DNA from: Lacrimispora sp. BS-2
GTDB taxonomy: Bacteria > Bacillota > Clostridia > Lachnospirales > Lachnospiraceae
Assembly (NCBI RefSeq): GCF_040207125.1
Contig: NZ_CP157940.1
Coordinates: 1,364,001-1,428,000 of the forward strand
Length of the DNA: 64,000 nucleotides
Direction: 5' to 3'
Numbering within the stretch: position 1 is the first letter of the stretch; each line of letters opens with the position of its first letter. The notes under the pieces were generated by a model. That model did not search any database, had not been told where the DNA came from, and saw nothing but the letters and a program-made list of their open reading frames with translations. Both the position numbers and the translations under genes were made by a program. Positions 23,762 to 63,685 of the stretch are shown in pieces.

Positions 23762-23790
23762 TTGACAATTTTATATATTTATGATAGACT
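23762..23790 (+). promoter_or_regulatory. Promoter of the ABC-F leader
   Basis: A perfect TTGACA at 23762 and TAGACT at 23785, 17 bases apart, 28 bases after proA. It gives an untranslated leader of about 275 bases before the ABC-F start codon. Confidence 0.65.
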
Positions 23791-23821
23791 ACGGGCATAT
23801 AAAACGAAATGAGGTGAAAGG

Positions 23822-23830
23822 ATGATTTAA
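23822..23830 (+). CDS. Candidate two-codon upstream ORF (Met-Ile-stop)
   Basis: ATG ATT TAA at 23822-23830 is preceded by GAGGTGAAAGG, one of the best ribosome sites in the region, although nothing long is translated from it. The first attenuator segment starts two bases after its stop. A ribosome held on this ORF would cover part of that segment. I read it as a regulatory uORF; that it is translated is inference. Confidence 0.5.
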   Translation: MI

Positions 23831-23831
23831 T

Positions 23832-24030
23832 AATTCTTGCTTAAGTAACTGCATGATAAGAAGGAAAGGACATTGTCTTTTTTTGTCATGCCTGTTTTTG
23901 CAAGAATATTATTTCATTCTCATACCCTTTTTATGTCATAATAAGACATGGATAAAGCAGAAATTTTGCCCATTGGGCTTGTTTTGATGCGAACGGCTGT
24001 GAGAAAAAGGATTCTTGCAGTCGTTTTTTT
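23832..24030 (+). promoter_or_regulatory. Candidate ribosome-mediated transcription attenuator upstream of ABC-F
   Basis: Three 8-nt segments are visible. Segment 1 is ATTCTTGC (23833-23840), segment 2 is GCAAGAAT (23900-23907), and segment 3 is ATTCTTGC again (24011-24018). Segment 2 can pair with 1 or 3 but not both. Segment 3 lies in the loop and 3' arm of a 14-bp uninterrupted hairpin (23992-24005 with 24012-24025, three G-U pairs, six-base loop) that ends in seven Ts, a strong terminator. An additional GCATGA/TCATGC pairing (23851 with 23886) supports the 1:2 fold. The layout matches drug-induced attenuators known for several ABC-F and erm genes. Confidence 0.7.
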
Positions 24031-24070
24031 GTGGGGAAATTTAATTTCCTGCCTGAATGGAGGAATATCT

Positions 24071-25585
24071 ATGTCATTAATACAGGTCACTGATTTGTCA
24101 TTCACCTATGAAGGAAGCCCAAACCCAGTCTTTAAGCACGCTTCCTTTCAAATTGATACAGATTGGAAGCTGGGCTTTACAGGAAGAAACGGAAGAGGAA
24201 AGACTACATTTTTAAATCTTCTGATGAACCGGTATCAATACACGGGAACCATTGTTTCCAATGTCCTGTTTGATTACTTCCCATTTCCTGTACCGGATGA
24301 GGAGCTGAACACTTTGGAAATTCTGGACTCTCTCCTTGGGGATTATGCATTTTGGGAGCTAAAAAAAGAATTATCCAGGCTGAAAGTTTCCGAGGATGCG
24401 CTATACCGCCCGTTTTACACGCTTTCAAACGGGGAGAGGACCAAGATTCTATTAGCAGCCCTGTTCTTAAAGGAAGGCCATTTTCTGCTGATCGATGAGC
24501 CGACCAATCATCTGGACCGGGAGGCCAGAGAACTGGTAAGCCAGTATTTAAACAGCAAAAAGGGATTTATCCTGGTATCCCATGACCGGAAATTCCTTGA
24601 TGCATCCGTGGACCATATCTTGTCCATAAACAAAACCAACATTGAGGTGCAAAAGGGTAATTTCTCCTCCTGGTACGAGAATAAGCAGATGCAGGATCAG
24701 TACGAACGGTCCGAAAATGAACGTTTGAAAAAGGACATCAGGCATCTGGAGGCTGCTGCAAGACAATCCGGGGAATGGGCGGATCAAGTGGAATCGACAA
24801 AAATCGGAAAAAAATCCATGATACACGAAAAATCCATTGATACGCGGGCCTATGTCGGCGAAAAATCCAGGCGGATGCAAATGCGGAGAAAGAATCTGGA
24901 ACGCAGGCAGGACCGTGTCATTGATGATAAAAAAGGCCTGCTTAAAAACATTGAAGATGTGGAAGATCTTAAGCTTTATCCTTTAAAATACCGCACCTCA
25001 AGGATTCTCACCTTGAAAAATGTGGTTCCATACTATGGGATGCCTGTCTGTGAGCCGGTCAGCTTCACCCTGGAACAGGGACAGCGCATATCCTTGCAGG
25101 GGAAAAACGGCTGCGGAAAATCCAGCATACTAAAGCTGATCCTGGGCGAAAACGTTACAGGTGAAAGTATCTCCTATGAGGGGGATAAGGAAACAGCCAG
25201 CGGCCTTAAAATTTCCTATGTATCCCAGGATACTTCATTTTTAAAAGGGAGCCTGACAGAATACTCCCGGGAAAGCGGTATCGAAGATTCCTTGTTTAAA
25301 GCGCTTCTGCGCAAGCTGGACTTTTCCAGAGAACAATTGGAAAAACCCATGGAATCCTATAGCGAAGGACAGAAGAAAAAAGTTCTTATCGCCCGCAGTC
25401 TCTGTGAGCAGGCCCATCTGTATATATGGGATGAACCTCTTAACTTCATTGACGTATATTCCAGGATTCAGATCGAAGATCTGATCCTTAAATTCCAGCC
25501 TACCATGCTGCTTGTGGAGCATGACGATGCATTTACCGGGAAAGTGGCAAGTGAAGTGGTGGAGATCCATGATCATAGGGAATAA
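24071..25585 (+). CDS. Lsa-type ABC-F ribosomal protection protein
   Basis: 504 residues with two fused ABC domains and no membrane segment. Walker A1 is GRNGRGKTT (residues 38-46) and A2 is GKNGCGKSS (about 343-351). The signatures are LSNGERTKI and YSEGQKKKV, and IDEPTNHLD marks Walker B1. The opening resembles Lsa-family proteins, which free ribosomes of lincosamide, streptogramin A and pleuromutilin drugs. A resistance phenotype is inferred, not shown. ATG 24071 is chosen for TGGAGGAAT upstream; an in-frame extension to 23948 runs through the terminator hairpin and has no ribosome site. Confidence 0.85.
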   Translation: MSLIQVTDLSFTYEGSPNPVFKHASFQIDTDWKLGFTGRNGRGKTTFLNLLMNRYQYTGTIVSNVLFDYFPFPVPDEELNTLEILDSLLGDYAFWELKKELSRLKVSEDALYRPFYTLSNGERTKILLAALFLKEGHFLLIDEPTNHLDREARELVSQYLNSKKGFILVSHDRKFLDASVDHILSINKTNIEVQKGNFSSWYENKQMQDQYERSENERLKKDIRHLEAAARQSGEWADQVESTKIGKKSMIHEKSIDTRAYVGEKSRRMQMRRKNLERRQDRVIDDKKGLLKNIEDVEDLKLYPLKYRTSRILTLKNVVPYYGMPVCEPVSFTLEQGQRISLQGKNGCGKSSILKLILGENVTGESISYEGDKETASGLKISYVSQDTSFLKGSLTEYSRESGIEDSLFKALLRKLDFSREQLEKPMESYSEGQKKKVLIARSLCEQAHLYIWDEPLNFIDVYSRIQIEDLILKFQPTMLLVEHDDAFTGKVASEVVEIHDHRE

Positions 25586-63449: not shown

Positions 63450-63645
63450 TATCACATTCTGTTATATCTCCGGTTCCAACGCGTTTGTTTTGCAGTTACC
63501 CGCATATTTCACGTAGGATACACGCCCGGAGGGGCATGGAAGGGCATCCGCCGAAAATTCGATAACCCTTCACCTCGTCAACCCTTGATACCATTTTCCT
63601 GGGAAAAATGTTCACGATCGTATCAACAGGTACATGGCGCTTAGC
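63450..63645 (-). ncRNA. glmS ribozyme riboswitch
   Basis: On the minus strand AAGCGCC (cleavage expected between bases 63641 and 63640) is followed by the core strings TTGACGAGG and GGTTATCGAATTTTCGGCGG, then ATGCCC, matching the glmS self-cleaving core. Glucosamine-6-phosphate triggers cleavage and lowers glmS mRNA. The 3' limit is approximate. Confidence 0.93.
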
Positions 63646-63685
63646 TTTGCTATTGTTATTTATGCCTCCTTCATAAATCTAGTTT

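Follow-up and report, generated by a model that had tools for sequence, protein, structure and literature searches.

How a reading frame of two codons could control a resistance gene is the question raised by a locus of Lacrimispora sp. BS-2. The window, the whole 64,000-nt stretch of DNA that we analysed, comes from a genome assembled as a single contig of 4,489,992 bases. In it, an upstream open reading frame (uORF), ATG-ATT-TAA (Met-Ile), lies in the leader of a gene for an Lsa-like ABC-F ribosome-protection protein. The initial annotation read this leader as a three-segment attenuator, in which an antibiotic holds a ribosome on the uORF and a terminator then cannot form. Our analysis leads to a closely related reading: the leader is very probably a ribosome-mediated transcription attenuator of the vmlR/cplR type with the start codon as its sensor, at which the drug would arrest the ribosome.

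The ABC-F gene occupies 24071..25585 on the plus strand and encodes 504 amino acids; its assignment comes from family profiles and the nearest solved chain. The best-scoring family was NF000167 (Lsa family), but since the score of 676.5 bits is under the curated cut-off of 750 we term the product Lsa-like and not Lsa. It passed NF000355 (ribosomal protection-like ABC-F; 445.5 bits, cut-off 380), and the solved chain nearest in sequence is Lsa(A) (7nhk, 385.2 bits).

All parts of the leader lie on the plus strand. At 23762..23790 there is a putative promoter, TTGACA-17-TAGACT, a consensus match at 10 of 12 positions with a TG before the second hexamer (TTGACA at 23762-23767, a 17-nt spacer, TAGACT at 23785-23790). 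The Shine-Dalgarno (SD) region of the uORF, GAGGTGAAAGG (23811..23821), has a GGTG that is invariant in 23 genus leaders and forms the 5' module of strand 1. It is followed by the uORF itself (23822..23830) and by segment 1, ATTCTTGC (23833..23840), the 3' module of the same strand. Segment 2 (23900..23926), the partner of strand 1 or of segment 3, consists of GCAAGAAT (23900-23907) and the 3' module TTCTCATACC (23917-23926). Segment 3 (23995..24018), its partner in the antiterminator, consists of GGCTGTGAGAA (23995-24005) and a second copy of ATTCTTGC (24011-24018). The intrinsic terminator stem-loop spans 23991..24026 with a T tract at 24024-24030, and the SD of the ABC-F gene, GGAGG, is found at 24059..24063. 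Direct reading placed the three segments, the uORF, the promoter-like site and the terminator where the initial annotation had put them. The terminator stem is overlapped by segment 3 as described, but by scan it has 15 pairs, not 14, and is then followed by seven T.

The leader (23797-24070, 274 nt) folded to -86.3 kcal/mol against a shuffle mean of -57.4 (z -6.56), with 0 of 200 shuffles as good. An exact word-complement-word triple of at least 8 nt in the last 310 nt before the gene was obtained in 1 of 300 dinucleotide shuffles. Segments 1 and 3 are identical over 8 nt and segment 2 is complementary to both, as had been proposed; the element, however, is larger. In the predicted fold the segment 1:2 helix continues into the SD and start codon of the uORF, and segment 2 runs as far as 23926. 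The 3' half of segment 2, TTCTCATACC, is able to pair with the uORF SD and start in strand 1 or with GGCTGTGAGAA in the 5' arm of the terminator, and GCAAGAAT is the partner of the segment 3 copy of ATTCTTGC in the antiterminator. The element is thus built of two modules rather than of one 8-mer triple, and strand 3 mimics strand 1 in both of them. Since the SD is buried once segment 2 has been synthesised, the ribosome should have to load earlier.

Between segments 1 and 2, an apical hairpin with a 7-T tract (23851..23891, T tract 23878-23884) was seen in the predicted fold and, by eye, in the genus alignment, where hairpin and T tract are kept and the stem letters are altered across most of the genus. 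By analogy with the NusG-type TTNTTT site given for vmlR in the accessible text of PMC9226507, it could be an RNA polymerase pause hairpin; it could also be an early terminator. A small hairpin, GGGGAAATTTAATTTCC, lies at 24033-24050 between the terminator and the ABC-F start, and many genus leaders have, by eye, counterparts of it (e.g. GCAGAAA..TTTCTGC). At the gathering score no Rfam family was found at the leader; the only one within the 64-kb window was a glmS ribozyme (63465-63652, minus strand; 64.1 bits, gathering score 37).

Of 25 genus genomes, 23 have an orthologue of the window ABC-F gene (E <= 1e-100), and 23 are matched by R2, a covariance model of the leader built from 14 of the 23 genus leaders. 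Among 291 genomes of the class R2 gave 8 matches, 6 of them outside the genus, and each of these 6 lies before a gene of the same ABC-F family. A uORF with its own SD and ATG was found in 23/23 genus leaders. Its content varies: the 23 aligned leaders encode MKK (10), MK (5), MKL (4), MN (2), MEL (1) and, in the window, MI (1); the stop is the third codon in 8 leaders and the fourth in 15. The spacing from the ATG to the TTCTTG of segment 1 is 12 nt in 22 of the 23 and 13 nt in one. The conserved feature is therefore the start codon with its 12-nt distance to segment 1, and the Met-Ile peptide, although present in the window as annotated, is incidental.

Standard pairs filled 93.1 % of the genus-alignment cells in the anti-antiterminator, 95.5 % in the antiterminator and 92.8 % in the terminator, compared with 32-62 % when the partner strand was slid; the terminator of one leader (L020) looks degenerate. 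Together with the presence of the leader in 23 of 25 genomes, these values support the attenuator reading. In the anti-antiterminator 11 of 23 pairs are invariant and one is altered on both sides. Shuffles gave as many double changes in 122/500 (anti-antiterminator), 305/500 (terminator) and 45/500 (antiterminator, marginal). Since there is one double-change pair per structure, the genus shows constraint and not covariation; the segments barely vary among these close relatives, so that the covariation check suggested in the initial annotation was nearly uninformative inside the genus.

The same check gave three-way changes in more distant Lachnospiraceae and allied loci, which also back the attenuator. 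L052 has the triple ATTCCTG/CAGGAAT/ATTCCTG, L055 has ATTTCTG/CAGAAAT/ATTTCTG, and L054, L061 and L073 have TATTCTTGC/GCAGGAATA/TATTTCTGC, bridged by G-U. All three segments, with differing cores, were found in 7 of the 14 distant loci (out of 27) that the segment finder covered, namely these five, L048 and L050. L051 has no triple by the segment-finder rule, yet an exact-word search found an exact TTCCTG triple in it; this search missed L020 and L021, and at many distant loci it returned either no word or one without relation to the triple.

Several side observations concern the ABC-F genes of the genus. In one genome the orthologue (G023:C1:206415-207909) was matched in two overlapping frames, a frameshift or an assembly error, and its leader (L022/L042) looks whole. 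Five of the 25 genomes (G013, G007, G005, G011 and G014) have a second Lsa-like ABC-F gene (L031-L035), 57-58 % identical to that of the window, with its own attenuator, the uORF MINFSC and segment 1 inside the frame. A motif search found a uORF with ITHD or ITHV (e.g. MINTDTLITHVNIHIESDTAGGTYME) upstream of the gene at five loci, L031, L033 and L034 of this paralogue and L269 and L271 of Paenibacillales; in the genus, by eye, a GTCGG/CCGAC hairpin comes next.

In Paenibacillales, by which we mean the order of the Paenibacillus ehimensis genome, the uORF becomes shorter still. The ABC-F gene was found at E <= 1e-140 in 141 of the 198 genomes searched, and at least 150 upstream regions, the loci among the matches listed, were examined. 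Leaders were detected by an SD, a start codon, TCTTG (segment 1) and CAAGA (or CAGGA), a rule that left 43 of the 150 loci listed without assignment. Among the matches listed, 72 of the 107 detected leaders are start-stop, with the start codon directly followed by a stop, and 35 have a sense codon 2. The start-stop leaders among these matches begin with ATG (67) or GTG (5) and continue with TAA (38), TAG (29) or TGA (5); the sense uORFs include MDISC, MYISC, MDFSC, MELSC, MK, ME, MRK and VRTFLA. The counts include loci of doubtful orientation or start (L206, L243, L250, L256, L267 and L268), and 70 of 103 leaders are start-stop when these are removed; L209 (MRIM) is ambiguous because of an in-frame upstream ATG. 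By eye, L123, L155, L175 and L176, which fall outside the rule, are also start-stop. Named examples are Paenibacillus contaminans (L064), P. ehimensis (L088), Cohnella laeviribosi (L090, TGA), P. vini (L106, TAG) and Shimazuella alba (L096). The classifier used on named loci classified 62 of 80, and 6 of the 80 are repeats of genus loci; judged by eye, its picks for L061, L062, L075, L108, L112 and L119 are false, and it missed the start-stop of L068 and L102, and its 20 other start-stop loci serve as illustration only.

When the start codon was left out of the detection rule, an ATG or GTG lay between the SD and segment 1 in 94 of 95 leaders among the matches listed, compared with a mean of 56.0 and a maximum of 70 when the spacer letters were shuffled 500 times. 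A start-stop was present in 75 of these 95 (shuffled mean 10.2, maximum 19), and after removal of the six doubtful loci the values among the matches listed were 92/92 with a start and 73/92 start-stop. In 71/72 start-stop leaders the start lies 10-13 nt from GGAG, a gap above the usual; 18/35 sense leaders have one of 11-13 nt. An alternative uORF start closer to the SD was rejected because only the ATG or GTG is constant, as was a reading of ATAATG as a -10 box, since several start-stop leaders have, by eye, a -10-like box further upstream. We also discarded a contrast in a downstream TTGC-stop (27/72 start-stop leaders, 18/18 leaders with a peptide ending in SC), since that stop is what defines the SC group. 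Parsimony on a tree of 65 gene copies gave at least 12 swaps between stop and sense at codon 2 and at least 9 swaps between stop codons; the tree was made by a quick method and has weak inner support, hand-set states and some loci twice.

In this order double changes are more frequent than in shuffles for all three helices. The alignment A2 comprises 33 Paenibacillales leaders, of which 30 are start-stop. Its double-change cells number 18 in the terminator (shuffles 6.6; 0/500 as high), 10 in the anti-antiterminator (5.0; 2/500) and 9 in the antiterminator (4.2; 6/500). Some slid versions of the antiterminator gave 11 and 13 double-change cells (vs 9), but with about half as many cells paired. 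In the folds of two Paenibacillales leaders (L183 and L213) the SD region of the gene is paired with sequence upstream of the terminator.

The effect of a ribosome was followed in folding models in which the RNA ends at the end of the terminator, folding is at equilibrium and the footprint region is held single-stranded. Scores were obtained for 21 of the 23 genus leaders; in L015 and L020 the rule applied found no segment 3. In the free RNA the mean probabilities of these 21 were 0.93 for segment 1:2, 0.00 for 2:3 and 0.93 for the terminator. Keeping positions -14 to +15 relative to the start codon unpaired raised P(2:3) in 21/21 leaders, above the terminator in 10 of them; for the window leader P(2:3) climbed from 0.00 to 0.56, and the terminator fell from 0.96 to 0.42. 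In the models, as had been proposed, a ribosome placed on the ATG thus freed segment 2 for segment 3, clearly in these 10 of 21 at edge +15. Nine of the 21 (L002, L004, L005, L008, L013 and L016-L019) stayed below a P(2:3) of 0.1 at this edge. A control footprint of 29 nt at +35..+64 gave 0.00 in the genus, start-stop and SC-ending groups.

The outcome depends on the front edge of the footprint. For edges at +9, +12, +15 and +18 the mean P(2:3) was 0.01, 0.06, 0.43 and 0.66 in the genus (n=21), 0.34, 0.74, 0.90 and 0.91 in start-stop leaders (n=64), and 0.14, 0.50, 0.80 and 0.81 in leaders with an SC-ending peptide (n=17). The antiterminator exceeded the terminator in 10 of 21 genus leaders at +15, 14 at +18 and 15 at +21, and the modelled switch was clear in 59/64 start-stop leaders at +15. 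In the models, then, the flip begins at a front edge of about +12 to +15, which is the footprint of a ribosome arrested with the ATG in the P site. For vmlR a toeprint at +16 is given in the accessible text of PMC9226507.

The start-stop form also occurs before a different kind of gene. A model of the Paenibacillales hairpin (R1), searched in 299 genomes of the class, matched in 32 of them. Its 37 places, which leave out two weak further ones (in G139 and G291), lie before an ABC-F gene (29), before a radical-SAM gene (7) or at a contig end (1). The radical-SAM product at L304 passes the Cfr cut-offs (TIGR04432, 638.5 vs 550; NF000424, 602.3 vs 530), which were scored for L304 alone, and the other loci were assigned by similarity to it. 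All seven leaders before a Cfr gene among the R1 places are start-stop (6 ATGTAA, 1 ATGTGA). In another order of Bacilli, that of genome G497, 18 of 39 genomes have a Cfr-family gene; this order is probably the Brevibacillus group, since the ABC-F leaders of the relatives resemble that of Brevibacillus fortis (L075). A start-stop leader was found no more than 800 nt upstream of the Cfr gene at 12 of these 18 loci (L327 being ambiguous because of an in-frame upstream ATG), and none was found by this 800-nt rule at the other 6. In G497, G282, G513, G458, G489 and G404 one leader precedes each gene, with a short sense uORF before the ABC-F gene (e.g. MLTFSC, L303) and a start-stop before cfr.

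Between the attenuator and the Cfr gene there is a second conserved uORF of 40 codons (e.g. MKAMEIEVVDDTVNRFLLDEAVHKKTNRLPEVYQSIDRCT; L304 in G497, L306-L309 and L313-L325), which ends 65-113 nt before cfr in 13/18 loci and is possibly a second, translational control. A related EVVD stretch occurs upstream of the ABC-F gene at 15 of 150 Paenibacillales loci among the matches listed.

From the anatomy, its conservation and a modelled switch that hinges on a footprint edge near +12 to +15, we infer the following course of promoter use, ribosome loading, RNA polymerase pausing, arrest by drugs and resulting transcripts. Without drug, a ribosome would translate the two codons and leave, or would not yet have loaded. 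Strand 1 (SD, ATG and segment 1) would then pair with segment 2, the terminator would form, and transcription would end before the ABC-F gene. An A-site blocker of the peptidyl-transferase (a pleuromutilin, lincosamide or streptogramin A) would arrest the ribosome with the ATG in the P site. With the SD and the beginning of segment 1 under this ribosome, segment 2 would be left to pair with segment 3, and the ABC-F gene would be transcribed. Judged by their sequences, many Paenibacillales relatives have the same device with a start codon directly followed by a stop.

The dipeptide or the stop codon could instead be the sensor, with a stall on Met-Ile or a minigene-like pause at the stop with peptidyl-tRNA drop-off, with or without drug. 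The uORF of the window is indeed similar to two-codon minigenes such as lambda bar AUG-AUA-UAA, at which a pause comes with peptidyl-tRNA drop-off. A two-codon mini-ORF is also reported to act in cis in axe-txe (PMC8708949, as far as its accessible text goes), and in the vmlR leader one uORF variant (MRK) was less effective, according to the available part of PMC9226507. However, codon 2 can be I, N, K or E and the stop position shifts in the genus. Codon 2 is itself a stop in the majority of the Paenibacillales leaders among the matches listed, and has swapped between stop and sense repeatedly on the gene tree. Because codon 2 and the stop position vary, and codon 2 is often a stop, a peptide that stalls the ribosome is unlikely to be conserved across the family, and we regard a sensor of this kind as very improbable. 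It is very improbable, in our view, that a constitutive terminator is combined with a protective leader whose helices do no more than set the basal level or stabilise the mRNA, with loading on the uORF not regulated by drugs. The strong pairing of the free RNA and the near-absence of modelled switching in 9 of 21 genus leaders would agree with this, but a terminator alone needs neither a segment 2 that pairs alternately with two partners at conserved positions nor a start codon at a nearly fixed distance, and one leader family is found on resistance genes of two unrelated kinds that act at a single drug site.

A further explanation concerns the origin of the start-stop and is compatible with a start-codon sensor. 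GTAA, GTAG and GTGA are all able to pair with segment 2, so the stop codon may have arisen through pairing, as a by-product of the match between GTAA/GTAG in segment 1 and GTTAC in segment 2. In A2, 94.3 % of cells show pairing between columns 22-25 and 120-123, and G-U occurs at the variable places. The T-first codons that the pairing allows are the three stops and TGG, and TGG occurs once among the 107 leaders listed, too few to tell. The sense-codon leaders L211 (MDISC) and L229 (MYISC), on the other hand, retain GTTAC in segment 2 and hence do without this pairing. We consider this origin a tentative possibility; whether or not it applies, the ORF is still start-stop in effect.

Taken with the start codon as the sensor, these data make it reasonably likely that an attenuator family across Bacillota senses drugs by bare initiation, as a device placed before Lsa-like ABC-F and Cfr genes and blind to drugs that depend on a nascent chain. 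In a start-stop ORF, if this is true, no peptide bond is made and formyl-methionine release is the sole reaction. The ORF would signal that the A site of the peptidyl-transferase is occupied, by pleuromutilins, lincosamides or streptogramin A, and would be blind to macrolides, phenicols and oxazolidinones, which need a nascent chain. A regulatory ORF would then need no coding content, since a start and a stop would be enough to read drug binding at the peptidyl-transferase centre. Two genes giving resistance to one drug group would, moreover, seem to have a common sensor design, a point of relevance to genome searches for inducible resistance.

Attenuation of ABC-F genes by drug-stalled short uORFs, including arrest at the start codon, is already known. 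The initial annotation had pointed to such leaders, and they are well established for vmlR and cplR (accessible texts of PMC9226507 and PMC10201436). In the vmlR leader of Bacillus subtilis, lincomycin or retapamulin arrests initiation on the uORF MIN, and several uORF sequences are tolerated (PMC9226507, accessible part). As there, the leader in the window has an SD and a very short uORF at the anti-antiterminator, an alternative antiterminator and an intrinsic terminator. Unlike the vmlR leader as presented in that text, its strand 3 mimics strand 1 in two modules. The genes also belong to different ABC-F subfamilies, since VmlR is ARE2 and LsaA is ARE3 in the accessible text of PMC10201436. 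The same text describes cplR of Clostridioides difficile, which the leader in the window is again predicted to resemble: its uORF is part of a 5' hairpin, transcription ends prematurely at the start of the gene, and a ribosome stalled on the uORF brings about induction. Both vmlR and cplR have an additional translation attenuation, in which the SD of the gene is sequestered; such sequestration is not evident in the predicted fold of the window leader.

In Streptomyces, toeprints on the are5sc and tiaA uORFs correspond to start-codon stalling by a lincosamide, streptogramin A or pleuromutilin, and an antiterminator model was put forward (PMC12421871, accessible part). Those uORFs (MLV and MVGDDDISG) and their ARE5 genes differ from what we describe here. 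Start-stop ORFs of E. coli and Campylobacter are possibly translated and have a potential regulatory function, and a two-codon minigene affects txe (accessible parts of PMC11955535 and PMC8708949). The Campylobacter sites in the available text of PMC11955535 are 18 putative ones, internal and out of frame, with a length of 2 or 3 codons, and are not drug-sensing attenuator uORFs. Searches limited to open-access papers showed no start-stop attenuator uORF, and the search on cfr-like genes likewise showed none ahead of such a gene.

Similar sensors may have been overlooked. The finder used in the cplR study, uORF4u, has a default minimum of nine nucleotides, that is three codons (PMC10219788, accessible part), so MX* and M* frames could be missed by it. 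The uORF consensus sequences in the accessible text of PMC10201436, MR[I/M] for CplR, MIN for VmlR and the predicted MK[L/Q] (VmlR2) and MAGN (LsaA), have three or four codons, and the uORF in the window has two. The relatives of the window leader offer a natural test of a point left open in the vmlR and cplR papers, namely whether the sequence of the uORF matters for inducibility. Compared with the known systems, the window holds a member with a shorter uORF: three codons in vmlR (MIN, by the available text), two in the window and one in the start-stop relatives. The unusual part, as read from the sequences, is the series from MKK through MK or MI to a bare start-stop, together with the start-stop form before Cfr, with an ORF that forms no peptide bond apparently acting as the drug sensor of two unrelated resistance mechanisms.
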